From positions 34,461-98,460 of the forward strand of contig CANCHK010000001.1 in NCBI GenBank assembly GCA_947377865.1: a DNA stretch of 64,000 bases, written 5' to 3'. The DNA comes from Opitutia bacterium. Lineage in GTDB: Bacteria > Verrucomicrobiota > Verrucomicrobiia > Opitutales > UBA953. The notes beneath the pieces were generated by a model, which saw only the letters and a program-made list of their open reading frames with translations, was not told where the DNA came from and did not search any database. Below are positions 1,449 to 64,000 of this stretch, piece by piece; position 1 is the first letter of the stretch, and each line of letters opens with the position of its first letter. Made by a program: the position numbers and the translations under genes.

Positions 1449-1477
1449 GACGCGGCGCCAAGGACGCCGCGAGGGGT

Positions 1478-1609
1478 AGGGGTAGGGGTAGGGACACGGA
1501 CAGGAGCCAAGCATGAGGCAAGTCTCGGGGACAGCTACAGGCTACTCTGCCCTGCGTCTGGATCTGCCCCTAGGTATCGAAACCTGTCCGTGTCCCTACC
1601 CCTACCTCT
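1478..1609. repeat. Long inverted repeat between paralogous CDSs
   Basis: gtaggggtagggacacggacagg 1482-1504 / cctgtccgtgtccctacccctac 1583-1605 (23 bp perfect, extends a few bp outward with one G.U). Confidence 0.85.
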
Positions 1610-2313: not shown

Positions 2314-2430
2314 GGTAGGGGCGCGACTGCGTCGCGTCCGTTCGCCGGGGAACGTGCGAATCACCGGGCATAATCCTTGGGCCCAGCCGACATCCTCAAC
2401 CCACGGACGCCACGCAGTGGCGCCCCTACC
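2314..2430. repeat. GGTAGGG two-hairpin element (family A)
   Basis: Left gcgac-tgc-gtcgc, core cgtgcgaatcaccgggca, right gccac-gca-gtggc, ends GGTAGGGGCG / CGCCCCTACC. Confidence 0.85.
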
Positions 2431-2612: not shown

Positions 2613-4997
2613 ATGGCATCTAATACCCCCATGTCCCCTCGCGTCCTTTCCCTCCTCGGATTGTCCCTGCTGGCCACCGTCTCCGGCCGTGCCCAGTCCG
2701 CCGACACGGTCTTCATCGAAGCCGAGTCCCTTGCCTCGCATGGCGGCTGGAAACTCGACACTTCCTTCACAAACATTGTCGGTTCGCCTTACCTTCTGGC
2801 CCACGGTCTGGGTAAGCCCGTCGCCGACGCCACGGGCTCGGTCCATATCGAGTCTGCCGGCGAATACCGCGTCTGGGTGCGCACCAAGGATTGGGTTGCC
2901 CACTGGAACGCCCCTGGTACGCCCGGACGATTCCAACTCATCGTCAACGGACAGCCCGTCGCCGCCGAGTTCGGCACCAAGGGCGCCGAGTGGAATTGGC
3001 AAGAAGGCGGCAAGGTCACCCTACCCGCGGGCGATGTGAAGCTCGCGCTCCATGACCTGACCGGTTTTGCAGGCCGTGCCGACGCCATCCTTTTCAGCAA
3101 GGACACCTCCTTTACCCCGCCCGAAGGCGAAGCGCTCGTCGCCGCCCGTTCGAAGTGGAACAACCCCAAGGGCCCTGAAGACCAAGGTGAGTTCGATCTC
3201 GTCGTCGTCGGCGGTGGTTACGGCGGCATGGGCGCGGCGCTCTCCGCCTCTCGTCAGTCTCTCAAGGTAGCCTTCATCCAAGATCGTTTCGTGCTCGGCG
3301 GTAACGGCAGCTCCGAAATCGGCGTCTGGGCGATGGGCGGCACCACCCGCGGCAAGTACCCTCACCTCGGCGAGATCATCGAGGAGATCGGTGATCGTTC
3401 GACCGATAGCCCTGGCCGCGTCGACAGCTTCGGCGACGACCTCAAGGAAAAGGTTGTTCGGAACGAGAAGAACATCACCCTCTTCCTCGGCCACTTCGCC
3501 ACCGGCGTCATCATGGAAGGCAATCGCATCGCCGCCGTGAAGGCCATCGACGTCAAGACCGGCCTCGAGAAGGTCTTCCGCGCGAAGTTCGTGGCAGATA
3601 CCACCGGACACGGCTGGGTCGGCGCCTACGCTGGCGCGAAGTATCAGATCGAAAAGGACAAGCGCATGGGCATGTCCAACATGTGGTTCTATCAGGACGA
3701 AGCGCAGGCCGTCTCCTGGCCTGCCACCCCATGGGCGTTACCGCTCGAGCTCGGCGACTTCCCTCCCCTCAATAAGTCCAAGGCAAAGATTGATGATAAG
3801 CCCTTCATGAAGGCCGAATGGTTCTGGGAATCTGGATTCGACCAGGACCCGATCAATGGCCTCGAGTATATCCGTGACTGGAATTTCCGTGCGATCTACG
3901 GCGCCTTCTCCGCGCTCAAGAACGGGGCGGAAAAGGATAAGTACGCCCACGCCGACCTCAAGTGGGCCTCCCACGTCGGCGGCCCGCGCGAATCCCGCCT
4001 GCTCACGGGTGATATCGTGCTGAACAAGCAGGACATCATCACGCGCAAGGAGTTCGACGACGGCTGCGTGCCGACCACCTGGGACATCGACCTCCACTAC
4101 GCCCGCGAACAGTACGCCAAGAAATTCCCGGAAAACCCGTTCATCTCACGCGCTGCCTTCGGCTACGTCGGCGCGGACGGCAAAGGCATCGCCGCCGTGG
4201 ACCGTCGCAACGGCTACCCGCTGCCCTACCGCCTGTTCTACTCCGAGAACATCGGCAACCTCTTCATGGCCGGCCGACATATCTCCGTCACACATGAGGC
4301 CCTCGGCACCGTCCGCGTGATGCGCACCATCGGCATGATGGGCGAGGTCGTCGGCAAAGCGGCCTACCTCGCCGTACGTGAGAACAGCGATCCGCGCGGC
4401 GTCTACCAGAAGCACCTCCCTGACCTCCTCAAGCTCCTGGAACAGCCTGGCCGCATGCGTCGCAGCGACCTGCGCTCGGACCTCTTCCTCGATACCTCGA
4501 TTGCCGACTATAAGGAACTCCCCGTCGGCCGCATGAACCTTGATCTCACCAAGGGAACTCCGTCGAAGCTCAGCGAGGACGATGTCAAAGAACTCGCCAA
4601 ACTCGGGGGTATCGTCGTCGACGACGCGCAGGCGAAGTACGAAGGCAAGTGGACCGAAGGCCACGGCCTCGCCCACCTCGGCGCGGGCTACCACTATGCC
4701 TCCGGCTCCGGCAATCGCGCCACCTACACTTTCGAGGTCAAGGACGCCGGTAAGTACGAGCTCCGCGGCTACTGGCAGGGCCACGAGAACCGCTCGGGCA
4801 ACTCCTTGCTGACGATTAACCGAGCTGGCGAGAAGCCCGTCACCCTCCGCCTCAACCAGAAGGTCGGCGAAATCGAACAGGCCAATAAGCTCGGCAAGTT
4901 CCAGTTCGCCGCCGGCACTCACACGCTCGTGCTTTCTACCGAAGGCGCCAAGGGCAGCGTGCAGGCCGACGCCTTCCAGCTGGTCCTCGCCGACTAA
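2613..4997 (+). CDS. Secreted FAD-dependent oxidoreductase (FAD_oxidored/PF12831-like) with C-terminal golvesin-like domain
   Basis: 794 aa; signal peptide; dinucleotide fold FDLVVVGGGYGGMGAALSASRQSLKVAFIQDR...LGGNGSSEIGVW; C-terminal AKYEGKWTEGHGLAHLGAGYHYASGSGNRATYTFEV...GKYELRGYW. Confidence 0.85.
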   Translation: MASNTPMSPRVLSLLGLSLLATVSGRAQSADTVFIEAESLASHGGWKLDTSFTNIVGSPYLLAHGLGKPVADATGSVHIESAGEYRVWVRTKDWVAHWNAPGTPGRFQLIVNGQPVAAEFGTKGAEWNWQEGGKVTLPAGDVKLALHDLTGFAGRADAILFSKDTSFTPPEGEALVAARSKWNNPKGPEDQGEFDLVVVGGGYGGMGAALSASRQSLKVAFIQDRFVLGGNGSSEIGVWAMGGTTRGKYPHLGEIIEEIGDRSTDSPGRVDSFGDDLKEKVVRNEKNITLFLGHFATGVIMEGNRIAAVKAIDVKTGLEKVFRAKFVADTTGHGWVGAYAGAKYQIEKDKRMGMSNMWFYQDEAQAVSWPATPWALPLELGDFPPLNKSKAKIDDKPFMKAEWFWESGFDQDPINGLEYIRDWNFRAIYGAFSALKNGAEKDKYAHADLKWASHVGGPRESRLLTGDIVLNKQDIITRKEFDDGCVPTTWDIDLHYAREQYAKKFPENPFISRAAFGYVGADGKGIAAVDRRNGYPLPYRLFYSENIGNLFMAGRHISVTHEALGTVRVMRTIGMMGEVVGKAAYLAVRENSDPRGVYQKHLPDLLKLLEQPGRMRRSDLRSDLFLDTSIADYKELPVGRMNLDLTKGTPSKLSEDDVKELAKLGGIVVDDAQAKYEGKWTEGHGLAHLGAGYHYASGSGNRATYTFEVKDAGKYELRGYWQGHENRSGNSLLTINRAGEKPVTLRLNQKVGEIEQANKLGKFQFAAGTHTLVLSTEGAKGSVQADAFQLVLAD

Positions 4998-5000
4998 CGG

Positions 5001-7619
5001 ATGCCGTCGCCCCGCGTCAGCGCCTGGCTGGTCAAAGGCTGGCGTCTCACGGCGCTGGTACTGGCCGCCCTGCTCCTGCAACGCACGACGCCGCTCACGG
5101 AATCGGCGCTGACACGTCTGGGGCTCGACGACGCCAAGGCGTTCTTCCCTGGCGCCAAGCGCCTGAAGTCCGGCCCTAACCAGACACTGCTGGTCCAGGA
5201 CCAATACGGCAACCGCCTCGGACGGCTGGTCACAACTTCGCCCGACGCCGACAGCATCCTCGGCTACTCCGGCCCAAGCAACGTGCTCGTCGCACTGGAC
5301 AACCAGGAGAAGATCGTCGGCACCCGTATCATTTCCAGCGACGACACCCCGGAACACGTCGACGAACTGCGAGGCCGACCGGCGTTCGAGAAGTCATTCA
5401 AAGATTGGCGCCCCACAACGCAACCGGCGCCGAAGCTCGAGGCCTACGCGGGCTCGACGCTCACGGCCTATGCGATTACCGAATCGATCCAGAAGCGCCT
5501 GTCTGGGAATTACGTCTCACTGCGCTTCCCCACCGCGCTCTCGCTGAAGGAAGTCCAAGGCGCGGGCTTTGCTGACGCCACCAGCTTCGAACCCAACGTC
5601 CCTCGCCTCGGCTGGAACCTCGTGCGCGGGCCCAATCGCGCGCTGCTCGGCTATGTCGTGCGCTCCTCGCCTTCGGCGGACGAAGTCATCGGCTACGCCG
5701 GCCCGAGCGAGACGCTCATCGCGGTGGAACCCGACGGCCTCCGCCTCCGCAAGGTCATGTTGCGCTCGACCTACGATACCTCGGAATATGTCAGCCGCAT
5801 CAAGGACCAGGAACCCGACCCCCAGGGTCGGACCTTCTTCAAGGAGCTGACGAAGTGGAACACGCGCGAGTGGGCCGAATTCGACTTCCGCAAAGGCGAG
5901 CTCGATACCGTCGCCGGCGCAACGCTCACCAGTTACGCCATCGCCAAGGGACTCCAGACGCGCTTCGCCGATGACGCGCATGGCGGACATCGCGAGAAGC
6001 AGGACTCCCGGCAGCGCCTCCAGACCGCGGCACTCTGGTGCTTCCTCGTCGGCGCCTTGCTGATGACCTTCACGCCGCTGCATGGCCGGCCTGTCGTCCG
6101 GACCATCTGGCAAGTCCTGCTTGTCGGTGGCCTTGGCCTCTGGCTCGGCCAACTGCTTTCCCTCTCCCTCTTCGCCGGCTGGGCCCGTCACGGCATCCCT
6201 TGGAGCCAAGCGCCCGCCCTGCTCATACTCGGAGCCGTCGCCCTACTCGTCCCCTGGGGTTCCCGACGTCAACTCTACTGCCACCATGCCTGCCCCCATG
6301 GGGCCGCCCAGGAGCTCCTCGGCGGCTTTAAGAGGCTCCATCTTACCGTCCCCGCTCACTGGCATGCCTGGCTGGGCAAAGTGCCTGCCATCGCCCTTGC
6401 CGGGGCCTTTCTGGCCGCCTTGGCCTGGCCGCGTTGGAGCCTGGGCCAAGCCGAACCCTTTGACGCCTGGATTCTAGGAGTCGGGGTGGCCATTCCGCTA
6501 ACCTTGGCCGTGGTAGGGTTGGTCGCCGCAGTTTTCGTTCCGCAAGCCTACTGTAAATATGGCTGCCCGACTGGCGCCCTCTTCAAATTCGTCCGCTCCG
6601 CGAACCAGGCCGAGTCTTGGGGGCGCCGTGACATCTGGGCAGGTCTCATCCTTGCGCTGGGAGCCGTCGTAACATTCCTACCCCGCTCGGAGTTAGCCGA
6701 AGAAGGACCTGCGGAGACCTCGGCGCGCCAGGCCATCACCGAACTACACGGAGCGGCTTTCGGCACGACTTGGACGGTGAAGGTGCGTGGTAGCGACGTC
6801 GATGCCGAGATCCTCAAGCGCGAGCTCGAAGCCGAGATCAACCGCGTCGAGTTCTCGCTCTCGCATTGGCGCGAATCTTCCGTGACCGCTGACTTCAACC
6901 ACCTTGAGTCCACGCAGCCCTTCGGCATCTCGGGAGAACTCGCTGACACCGTCGAATTCGCCCTGAAACTCAGCGCCGCCTCCGATGGCATGTACGATAT
7001 CACGGTCGCTCCGTTGACGAACCTCTGGGGCTATGGCCCATCGGGCAAGCAACCCGACCCCACGCCGGAACAGATCAAGGCTGCGCTCGTGAAAGTCGGG
7101 TGGCAGAAGCTCAAGCTCGATAAGGAGAACCTCTCTCTGGCCAAGAGTCACGAAGGGGTGAACCTCGACCTCGGCTCCGTGCTGCAGGGCTACGCCGCCG
7201 ACCGTGCCGCGGCAATCCTCCGCGCCCAAGGACAGAACGACTTCCTGATCGAGGTCGGAGGCGAGATCCTCGCGGCCGGGTCGTGGCGCGTGGGCATCGA
7301 AGACCCTTTCAATCCGCGGCTGATGCTGCAGACAATGCTACTGTCGGACCGAGCGCTCAGCACCTCTGGACTTTACCGCGCCAAAAAGCTGGCCGCCGGC
7401 AAGCCCGTCTCGCACATCCTCTCGCCCAAGACCGGACGACCCGTGGAGCCCACGCTCGAGATGGCCGTGGTATATCACGAAAGCTGCTTCCAGGCGGACG
7501 GTTGGTCGACCGCGCTGATGGCGGCTGGATTCACGCAGGCCAAAATCATCGCCCAGCGCGAACAGCTTGACGTCATCCTCGTCACCCCGGACAAGAAGGT
7601 GTGGCGAAGCGGTAAGTGA
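5001..7619 (+). CDS. Fusion protein: two FMN-binding domains, NosR-like polytopic membrane region with CxxxCP motifs, C-terminal ApbE-type FAD:protein FMN transferase
   Basis: 872 aa; EAYAGSTLTAYAI and DTVAGATLTSYAI; CHHACPHGAAQELL and CKYGCPTGALFKF; ApbE-like GAAFGTTWTVKV...NLDLGSVLQGYAADRAA...EVGGEILAAG...HILSPKTGRPV; starts 3 nt after the previous stop. Confidence 0.85.
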   Translation: MPSPRVSAWLVKGWRLTALVLAALLLQRTTPLTESALTRLGLDDAKAFFPGAKRLKSGPNQTLLVQDQYGNRLGRLVTTSPDADSILGYSGPSNVLVALDNQEKIVGTRIISSDDTPEHVDELRGRPAFEKSFKDWRPTTQPAPKLEAYAGSTLTAYAITESIQKRLSGNYVSLRFPTALSLKEVQGAGFADATSFEPNVPRLGWNLVRGPNRALLGYVVRSSPSADEVIGYAGPSETLIAVEPDGLRLRKVMLRSTYDTSEYVSRIKDQEPDPQGRTFFKELTKWNTREWAEFDFRKGELDTVAGATLTSYAIAKGLQTRFADDAHGGHREKQDSRQRLQTAALWCFLVGALLMTFTPLHGRPVVRTIWQVLLVGGLGLWLGQLLSLSLFAGWARHGIPWSQAPALLILGAVALLVPWGSRRQLYCHHACPHGAAQELLGGFKRLHLTVPAHWHAWLGKVPAIALAGAFLAALAWPRWSLGQAEPFDAWILGVGVAIPLTLAVVGLVAAVFVPQAYCKYGCPTGALFKFVRSANQAESWGRRDIWAGLILALGAVVTFLPRSELAEEGPAETSARQAITELHGAAFGTTWTVKVRGSDVDAEILKRELEAEINRVEFSLSHWRESSVTADFNHLESTQPFGISGELADTVEFALKLSAASDGMYDITVAPLTNLWGYGPSGKQPDPTPEQIKAALVKVGWQKLKLDKENLSLAKSHEGVNLDLGSVLQGYAADRAAAILRAQGQNDFLIEVGGEILAAGSWRVGIEDPFNPRLMLQTMLLSDRALSTSGLYRAKKLAAGKPVSHILSPKTGRPVEPTLEMAVVYHESCFQADGWSTALMAAGFTQAKIIAQREQLDVILVTPDKKVWRSGK

Positions 7620-40190: not shown

Positions 40191-41231
40191 ATGAAGCACC
40201 CCCTCGCCCTCCTCGCCCTCCTCGCCGCGTTCGGCCAAGCCGCCGTCGCCGAAGAAGTGAAGCTCGTCGAACAGAAGGACAAGCAGCAGATCGACGTCGT
40301 CGTCGACGGCCAGCCCTTCACCTCCTACGTCTACTGGTCCAACCAGAAGAAGCCCTTACTCTCCCCGCTGCGCACCTCGCAGGGCAACATCTTCACTCGC
40401 GGCTTCCCGCTCGAAAAGGTCGCCGGTGAGCGCACTGACCACCCCCACCACATCTCTTCGTGGTTCAACTACGGTAACGTCAACGACTGCGATTTCTGGA
40501 ACTCCCCGCCCGAAGGCTTCGACCGCGACAGCAAGATCCCCTATGGCGCCGTCCGTCATAAGAGCATCAAGTCGATTAACAGCGGCAACGGTTCCGCCAC
40601 CCTCGAGGTCTCGTCCGACTGGATTATGAACGACGGCTCCAAGGTGCTACAGCAGGATGAACAGCTCGTCTTCCGCGCCTCCAAGGACCTGCGTATCATC
40701 GACCGTATCATCACCCTGACCGCACAGGAGAAGGACGCCGTCTTCAAGGACTCCAAGGAAGGCGCCATCGCCATCCGCCTGACCCGTTCGCTCGAAGAAC
40801 CCTCCACCAAGGCCGAGATCTTCACCGACGCCGCCGGCAAGCCCACCGCCGTCGCCAAGCTCGACAACACCGGCGTCAACGGCGTCTACCTCAGCAGCGA
40901 AGGCAAGGTCGGCGAGAAGGAAGCCTGGAGCACGCGTGCCAAGTGGATGACCCTCTCCGGTAACGTGAAGGGCGAAGACGTGTGCATCGGCATCTTCGAC
41001 CACCCGAAGAACAGCACCTACCCGACGTACTGGCATAACCGCGGCTATGGCCTCTTCGCCGCCAATCCGTTCGGCGCCAAGGAATTCACCAAGGGCAAGA
41101 CCACGCTCAACTTCACCATCAAGGCCGGCAAGTCCGAGACCTTCCGCTTCCGCATCCTGATCCACTCCGGCAAGCTCACCGCAGAGCAGACCGAAGCCCA
41201 GTATCAGCAGTTCCTCAAGGACGTGCAGTGA
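40191..41231 (+). CDS. DUF6807 (PmoA-like) family secreted protein
   Basis: 346 aa; signal peptide; YVYWSNQKKPLLSPLRTSQGN...TDHPHHISSWFNYGNVNDCDFW. Confidence 0.8.
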   Translation: MKHPLALLALLAAFGQAAVAEEVKLVEQKDKQQIDVVVDGQPFTSYVYWSNQKKPLLSPLRTSQGNIFTRGFPLEKVAGERTDHPHHISSWFNYGNVNDCDFWNSPPEGFDRDSKIPYGAVRHKSIKSINSGNGSATLEVSSDWIMNDGSKVLQQDEQLVFRASKDLRIIDRIITLTAQEKDAVFKDSKEGAIAIRLTRSLEEPSTKAEIFTDAAGKPTAVAKLDNTGVNGVYLSSEGKVGEKEAWSTRAKWMTLSGNVKGEDVCIGIFDHPKNSTYPTYWHNRGYGLFAANPFGAKEFTKGKTTLNFTIKAGKSETFRFRILIHSGKLTAEQTEAQYQQFLKDVQ

Positions 41232-41281: not shown

Positions 41282-41398
41282 GGTAGGGGCGCGACTGCGT
41301 CGCGTCCGTGGGCGGACGGACATCGGAACAGTCGAAAGACTTGCCCGGTAAATCCAACTCGCTTCGGCGAACGGACGCCACGCAGTGGCGCCCCTACC
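41282..41398. repeat. Family A element, core inverted relative to 2314-2430
   Basis: Left gcgac-tgc-gtcgc followed by gtgggcggacgg; core cttgcccggtaaatcc; right cggcgaacg then gccac-gca-gtggc. Confidence 0.85.
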
Positions 41399-41419: not shown

Positions 41420-41502
41420 CAAAGGGAGACCGGAAACCGGATAGCATGCTGCGGACATAAGACCCCCCAGCTAATCATCCGGCCTCCGGTTTCCCCTTGA
41501 GT
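41420..41502. repeat. Family B intergenic repeat, both orientations
   Basis: aaagggagaccggaaaccggat ... agctaatcatccggcctccggtttccccttgag; also near 2452, 7688, 7842, 38662, 39864, 44718-44800, 59610, 63800. Confidence 0.7.
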
Positions 41503-41518
41503 TCAATGCCTTTGTTTC

Positions 41519-44703: not shown

Positions 44704-44829
44704 GGAGATGCCAACGAGCCAAGGGGAGCGGAAACCGGGAAAGATACTGCGGGCATTATTGAGGACCCCAGCTAATCATCCGGTCTCCGGTCTCCCTTAA
44801 ATTTTTCCTAACCGCTAAACCCTGTCTTG

Positions 44830-44946
44830 GGTAGGGGCGCGACTGCGTCGCGTCCGTTCGCCTTGGCACGTCGGACTTACCGGGCAAGTTAATCGACTAT
44901 TTAATCATCCGTCCTCCCACGGACGCCACGCAGTGGCGCCCCTACC
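44830..44946. repeat. Family A element
   Basis: Same hairpins and core orientation as 2314-2430. Confidence 0.85.
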
Positions 44947-45809: not shown

Positions 45810-45926
45810 GGCAGGGGCGCGACTGCGTCGCGTCCGTTCGCCAAGTTGCGTGCGCATCACCGGGCAGCCTGCTCGACCCTCCAACCTTCGTCCGCCCACG
45901 GACGTGATAGCAATCACGTCCCTACC
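45810..45926. repeat. Family A element with mixed hairpin types
   Basis: Left gcgac-tgc-gtcgc, right gtgat-agca-atcac. Confidence 0.8.
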
Positions 45927-50231: not shown

Positions 50232-50350
50232 GGTAGGGACGCGACGGCGTCGCGTGCGTGGGCGGACGGAGTTTGGAACGGTCGGAGATTCTGCCCGACT
50301 CATTGTACGTGCCCCTGCGAACGGCGGCCATGGCAATGGCCGCCCTACCC
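50232..50350. repeat. Family A element with mixed hairpin types
   Basis: Left gcgac-ggc-gtcgc, right ggccat-ggca-atggcc; core inverted. Confidence 0.8.
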
Positions 50351-50418
50351 CTACCCCTACCCCAACCCCCACCCCTCCCTCTCTTGCCTCCGGCCCTCGT
50401 GCCCTCCATTCCTCTTAC

Positions 50419-51162: not shown

Positions 51163-51281
51163 GGTAGGGACGTGATTGCCATCACGTCCGTGGGCGGACG
51201 GAGCTTGGAACGGTCGATTAACTTGCCCAACTCATCGTACGTGCCTCTGCGAACGGCGGCCATAGCAATGGCCGCCCTACC
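51163..51281. repeat. Family A element abutting a truncated arm of another copy
   Basis: ggtggggcgcgactgcgtcg immediately followed by ggtagggacgtgat-tgcc-atcacgtccg ... ggccat-agca-atggccgccctacc. Confidence 0.8.
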
Positions 51282-54095: not shown

Positions 54096-54150
54096 GAGAT
54101 ATTAGGGGTAGGGGCAGGGATTGGGGTAGGGGTAGGTAATCCTTCCCTTA

Positions 54151-63668: not shown

Positions 63669-63786
63669 GGTAGGGCGGCCATTGCCATGGCCGCCGTTCG
63701 CAGAGCGACGTGCGATGAGCCGGGCAAGGTCATCGACCGTATGATATCCGTCCGCCCACGGACGTGATGGCAATCACGTCCCTACC
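63669..63786. repeat. Family A element
   Basis: Left ggccat-tgcc-atggcc, core acgtgcgatgagccgggcaaggtcatcgacc, right gtgat-ggca-atcac. Confidence 0.85.
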
Positions 63787-63840: not shown

Positions 63841-63958
63841 GGTAGGGCGGCCATTGCCATGGCCGCCGTTCGCAGAGCGACGTGGCATGAGCCGGGTAAG
63901 GTCAAAGACCCTATGATGTCCGTCCGCCCACGGACGTGATGGCAATCACGTCCCTACC
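63841..63958. repeat. Family A element, near-duplicate of 63669-63786
   Basis: Same hairpins; core differs at a few positions. Confidence 0.85.
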
Positions 63959-64000
63959 CCAACCCCAACCCCTGCCCCTACCCCTAAACTACTTCGCCGG

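Follow-up and report, generated by a model that had tools for sequence, protein, structure and literature searches.

How can a repeat carry the same two outer hairpins as its neighbours around a core that points the other way? The window, a 64,000-nucleotide stretch of DNA from an Opitutia bacterium, holds three 117-bp repeats, named here by their first positions (2314, 41282 and 44830), which sit between genes and, read directly, start with GGTAG and end with CTACC. The initial annotation described the core of the 41282 element as reversed between unchanged hairpins and proposed two routes to this state: inversion between the terminal inverted repeats, or exchange of the arms by recombination or conversion. 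How recognition hairpins change in REP and REPIN populations was left unexplained in earlier studies, as was the preference for unlike pairs (PMC3686654, PMC3733652). In one genus with many fixed sites, the hairpins, the core and the lineage of the REP-associated tyrosine transposase (RAYT) can be followed separately.

One set of letters, two descriptions

The 2314, 41282 and 44830 elements have in common the left hairpin GGGCGCGACTGCGTCGCGTCC and the right hairpin GGACGCCACGCAGTGGCGCCC. In the 2314 and 44830 elements, the A side of the core, CGTTCGCC, comes after the left hairpin, and a CCCACGG edge, the B side, precedes the right hairpin. In the 41282 element, the left hairpin is instead followed by the B side, CGTGGGCGGACGG, with the A side (rc CGTTCGCCG) towards the right. 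When reverse-complemented, the 41282 element aligned over its full length with the 44830 element (82%, E=4e-30) and with the 2314 element (77%). Direct reading and reverse-complement alignment thus bear out the annotated pattern, with the outer hairpins of the 2314 and 44830 elements standing around a reversed core (Table 1). The core is directional, with CGTTCGC on its A side and CGTGGGCGGACGG, with variants, on its B side; the two hairpins, which we call R (GCGAC/GTCGC) and P (GCCAC/GTGGC), are one stem base pair apart. "Same hairpins, core reversed" and "same core, two hairpins exchanged" are two descriptions of one set of letters. Written from A to B, the 2314 and 44830 elements are R-core-P (RP) and the 41282 element is P-core-R (PR). 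A chance origin of the reversed-core match is excluded, because cores of the family match at a median of 69% in register versus 42% with one of them reversed, and because related copies are carried by 51 of 55 genomes of one freshwater Opitutae genus.

Table 1. Positions of the A/B-core elements, the parts of the 41282 element and the gene upstream of it in the window
Feature	Position	Strand	Basis or remark
REP doublet (REPIN/BIME), A/B-core family, PR form: A-side P, B-side R	41282..41398	-	A to B on - strand
Hairpin R (GGGCGCGAC-TGC-GTCGCGTCC), B side of 41282 core	41287..41307	.	read directly
41282 core, A side at right end (reversed relative to 2314 and 44830)	41308..41372	-	alignment
Hairpin P (rc GGGCGCCAC-TGC-GTGGCGTCC), A side of 41282 core	41373..41393	.	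read directly
A/B-core family, RP form (A-side R, B-side P)	44830..44946	+	core-tree neighbour of 41282 lineage
A/B-core family, RP form	2314..2430	+	reading and alignment
A/B-core family, RK form	45810..45926	+	same core subfamily, other arms at locus in G018 and G046
A/B-core family, A side V, B side R-like hairpin with GGC loop	50232..50349	-	
A/B-core family, VK form	51163..51281	-	
A/B-core family, VK form	63669..63786	+	
A/B-core family, VK form, adjoining 63669..63786 copy	63841..63958	+	
DUF6807 gene upstream of 41282 element	40191..41231	+	PF14100, E=1e-73

A modular family of GTAG REP doublets

All three repeats belong to the GTAG-type REP doublets (REPIN/BIME) and are non-autonomous. 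They have the terminal GGTAG, the 9-bp stem hairpins and the many intergenic copies of GTAG REPs, and, like REPINs and BIMEs, they consist of two inverted REPs with a spacer, foldable into one hairpin. Folded as single strands, five of six elements paired arm to arm, including the three R/P copies of the window; the RK copy was the exception. Each element is modular, with a terminal GGTAGGG-hairpin at each end of a directional core of about 62 bp. An Rfam search of the window gave no match to a known structured RNA. The insertion sites, inspected for the target duplication of a MITE, offered no cleanly empty counterpart to a filled site, and the outer 8 bp appear semi-conserved. Hairpin type was weakly linked to the base that borders GGTAGGG on the outside (overall p = 0.08).

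The window's own genome has 66 matching stretches, and the named records bearing these hairpins are mostly freshwater Opitutae MAGs (UBA953, UBA7397 and BS6, for example). Our collection of 127 distinct copies was gathered with R and P queries, so that V and K are under-counted; it combines four main hairpins, R, P, V (GGCCAT..ATGGCC) and K (CGTGAT..ATCACG), with one core family. By their A and B ends, 68 copies are RP, 14 PR, 12 VK, 5 VR and 3 VP; PK, RK and RR occur twice each, KP and PP once each, and the remainder are other variants.

The system is of a known kind, and what it usefully adds is direct evidence for the block exchange of hairpins, which bears on the unexplained orthoswitch of REP classes. 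Like the heterodimers and hybrid dimers of GTAG REPs (Di Nocera et al. 2013, PMC3733652), the elements are GTAG-tagged pairs of inverted palindromes in which unlike partners are preferred; the same study found Opitutus terrae, also a member of the Verrucomicrobiota, highly enriched in GTAG repeats. Unlike those dimers, they have one directional core of about 62 bp common to several hairpin pairs, and their hairpin changes can be traced at fixed sites between species. With REPINs (Bertels and Rainey 2011, PMC3116915) they share the inverted REP doublet with a spacer, the predicted hairpin and the tie to a RAYT.

The preference for unlike ends is strong in the raw counts. Among 110 elements with classified ends, the same hairpin was seen at both ends in 3, compared with about 25 expected from the hairpin frequencies. 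For R and P alone, the excess of unlike ends gave a Fisher p = 5e-13 on raw counts that ignore kinship; assessed by phylogenetically independent pairs, of which 3 were supported, the rule was not significant. Copies with like ends fold into a longer uninterrupted stem, and one possible reason for the rule is that long perfect hairpins may be cleared. The preference for two different partners among GTAG REP dimers of other bacteria also came without an explanation (PMC3733652).

Core orientation is kept at fixed sites

We compared same-site pairs, defined as elements of different genomes (G-numbers; G000 is the window's own) with matching flanks on both sides. Core orientation was the same in about 35 of the 36 pairs and opposite in one, although some pairs are weak in that their flanks hold other repeats, and G019 and G027 are nearly identical at these loci. 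For the 41282 site, the DUF6807 gene, with orthologues in 36 of the 55 genomes, served as the anchor. Here the element has the same place, orientation and arm types in G003, G011, G019 and G027, that is, in five genomes with the window's own; its P arm (A side) is mutated in the near-identical G019 and G027.

When the same loci in relatives were compared for an inverted core between unchanged arms, one look-alike emerged, the opposite pair E066 (G046)/E096 (G045). The right junction is common to both elements, and both have R at the left and P at the right with the core reversed, as an inversion would leave them. Against this, the two cores are 73% alike, close to the background median of 69%, and belong to different subfamilies, with their nearest kin at 87% and 90%; to the left of the two elements the flanking DNA is not the same; and in G002 the E066 form recurs with left junction, core and orientation unchanged. 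On the strength of the core identity and the G002 orthologue we rejected an in-place inversion for this pair and read it as a probable replacement. Two further candidates with inverted flanks, E057/E126 and E038/E044, were discarded as lying at a different position or matching in repeats only.

If recombination or polymerase template switching inverted a core in place between its terminal inverted repeats, the 41282 pattern would arise in one step, with arms and flanks unchanged and the two hairpins still different. Template switching does flip spacers between short inverted repeats in yeast, but there it is tied to homogenisation of the arms (PMC8604942), and elements with the same hairpin twice are rare in our collection. 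At no locus did we find what an invertible DNA switch would present, namely the same core in both orientations, the one exception having a different core. As a general mechanism, in-place inversion is not supported by these comparisons, and we consider it quite unlikely. Of the two proposed routes, the first is not borne out, given the orientation kept in same-site pairs, and the second, arm exchange, is upheld by arm changes at fixed loci. The reported flip is real as a pattern, but seems mostly a matter of hairpin swapping rather than flipping.

Hairpins are replaced as blocks

At fixed sites, one hairpin block takes the place of another and the core keeps its orientation. One syntenic site carries PR in G000, PK in G018 and VR in G005, and another, with matching flanks, carries RP in G019 and KP in G002; most of the genomes compared are MAGs, some of them fragmented, and assemblies can go wrong at repeats of this length. 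Locus 45810 has RK in G000, VK and VP in tandem in G018 and VP in G046, all of one core subfamily and in one orientation. The right flank of the 44830 element recurs in G046 beside an element with V/K arms and a core oriented alike. Two adjacent copies in G018 match letter for letter over the left hairpin and the core, and the right hairpin alone sets them apart; two other copies have cores one position apart and both hairpins different. Between E026 and E111, the exchanged tract would comprise a hairpin plus half the core.

Whole-element or core-only replacement was also seen at some sites. At one of them, E102 and E119 have the same arms and different cores. At the 41282 site, just past the terminator of the DUF6807 gene, an unrelated REP pair lies between the same flanks in G002, G018, G028 and G037 (L055, L056, L061 and L066), so this site has been reused or the whole element exchanged. 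Both cases are what one would see if hotspot sites received different complete elements by independent re-insertion. Applied to the arm changes, however, re-insertion is doubtful: the same-site pairs E001/E061 and E022/E043 and locus 45810 have differing arms on a common core lineage, and tandem copies differ in one hairpin only.

PR and RP forms in the core tree

A further alternative, named in the initial annotation as the one that would overturn it, is that RP and PR are two old subfamilies that spread separately by transposition and never exchanged parts. In core trees, which are built on 61 columns and in which most forks are unsupported, the PR copies do cluster, with 12 changes compared with 15.4 in shuffles (0 of 500 as low), and all but one belong to the region of the tree that also contains the V and K arms. 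The stable orientation at loci and the fact that PR is the form flanking a RAYT gene (see below) also agree with separate subfamilies. Though clustered, the copies of the 41282 type are not one core clade, an arrangement that is rejected at AU p = 9e-5; moreover, arms differ at fixed sites between flanks that stay the same, and cores that are nearly identical bear different arms. Two old subfamilies as such are therefore not what the tree contains, and we regard their separate spread as very unlikely.

Parsimony on the core tree required 47 single-arm changes, or 44 when a complete swap was counted as one. This would leave room for at most about 3 swap-like events among at least 44 changes, which is also the most that allowing inversion would save. 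In the core tree, the 41282 and 44830 elements (E000 and E002) stand next to each other with opposite arms, the outcome expected of a single inversion, and no sampled V or K intermediate lies between them. One old inversion is possible between these two lineages, or at the base of some PR/RP splits.

Transposase genes flanked by PR and VK elements

In G011 and G034, a gene for a protein of 146-147 aa (78% identical between the two genomes) has a complete PR element on both sides, oriented A to B. Protein P0001 matched NF047646 (REP-associated tyrosine transposase) at E=2e-19, with 70 bits against an NCBIfam cut-off of 80 bits, and the TnpAREP of PDB 4ER8 at E=5e-7, with the H-x-H and a Tyr-bearing stretch aligned; it had no Pfam hit. 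By these matches the protein is a predicted member of the RAYT family. In G018 and G042, VK elements stand on either side of a RAYT gene of a second lineage (59-60% identical), and other RAYT lineages of the genus have their own hairpins. The flanking of a RAYT gene by A/B elements was thus found in relatives and not in the window's genome, where we found no A/B-cognate RAYT (this assembly is 76% complete, and the absence is provisional). No RP-flanked RAYT was found in the genus or family. The arrangement of the 41282 copy, with P at the start of the core and R at its end, is that of the elements on either side of the relatives' RAYT.

Synteny at the PR RAYT locus extends over G011, G034, G018, G042 and G000. 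The element upstream is PR in G011 and G034, VR in G042, and VK in the window's own genome as well as in G018. The left junction is common to G034 and G042, where the one has P and the other V, and the right junction is common to G034 and G018, with R in the former and K in the latter; the RAYT gene is broken in G018 and absent at that place in G042 and G000. A series of PR, VR and VK at one locus, around a core of unchanged orientation, suggests that single hairpins were exchanged as blocks. The situation resembles the REP orthoswitch (Nunvar et al. 2013, PMC3686654), in which orthologous RAYT loci of related strains have different flanking REP classes. There, the switch was inferred as a mutation of the flanking REPs, with the mechanism left open, unlike the present series of forms at one RAYT locus around a core of constant orientation.

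Several further observations concern transposase loci. A comparison of L029 (G000:C75), 4450-4478, with L148 showed that about 580 bp are missing from the window's own genome, the RAYT gene with them. The join falls in a 29-bp stretch (B-side arm) that matches both places, which suggests that the RAYT was lost by deletion between the flanking elements. Elsewhere in the same genome, L030 (G000:C83) contains two neighbouring Y1_Tnp genes (3224-4138 and 4713-5624) of about 300 aa, unlike the short RAYTs, with no GTAG repeats close around. In G026 (L297/L320), a RAYT is accompanied by a tandem array of elements of about 123 bp with the same layout and other hairpins and core; the array is likely a relative of the A/B family.

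Proposed exchange of hairpins around a fixed core

From the mosaic arms, the arm changes around a constant core at fixed sites and the RAYT genes flanked by PR or VK, we propose, with a probability of roughly 0.77, that the elements are modular REP doublets moved by RAYTs, whose end hairpins are exchanged as blocks while the core stays fixed in place and orientation. The repeats would have been moved, at least in the past, by cognate RAYTs, with the hairpins probably serving as the parts that the transposase recognises and so setting RAYT specificity. Hairpins would be replaced blockwise, usually at one end per event, from other copies by recombination or gene conversion, in tracts of a hairpin alone or of a hairpin plus half the core, and the core would stay put with its orientation unchanged. 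Since two different hairpins per element are strongly preferred, single swaps would tend to pass through V or K and not through identical ends. A difficulty for hairpin exchange is that a strict rule of two different hairpins makes changes of R and P look coupled.

RAYT cleavage and joining at the hairpin edges may help in the exchange, and we infer that gene conversion and cleavage-joining would each fit the observed blocks. We know of no biochemistry on these Opitutae RAYT enzymes. TnpAREP cleaves and recombines single-stranded REP hairpins beside GTAG in vitro, and groups of the enzyme have co-evolved with their REPs (Corneloup et al. 2021, PMC8266576). A bolder version, which we hold to be rather unlikely, is that RAYTs re-arm resident elements, swapping one terminal hairpin for the one they themselves recognise by cleavage and joining at its boundary. 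If true, re-arming would explain orthoswitches, and a new RAYT lineage could take over an old repeat population without re-insertion. More generally, with VR as an intermediate between two RAYT-specific forms, the question of how recognition hairpins change becomes testable by comparing sequences.

Other repeats beside the elements

A second dispersed inverted repeat (AAGGGAGACCGGAAACCGG ... CCCCAGC.AATCATCCGGTCTCCGGTTTCCCTT), which has no GTAG tag, occupies 41421-41503, 44722-44790 and, in part, 2454-2490 of the window and adjoins all three elements. A copy of this AAGGGAGACCGGAAACCGG-type repeat encloses an A/B element in G046 and in G002. Runs of GGGGTA are also found beside REP elements of the window (1474-1490, 46042, 50350-50374, 54106-54124 and 63965-63983); they are possible G-quadruplex formers, or possible slippage products of the GGTAGGG end.
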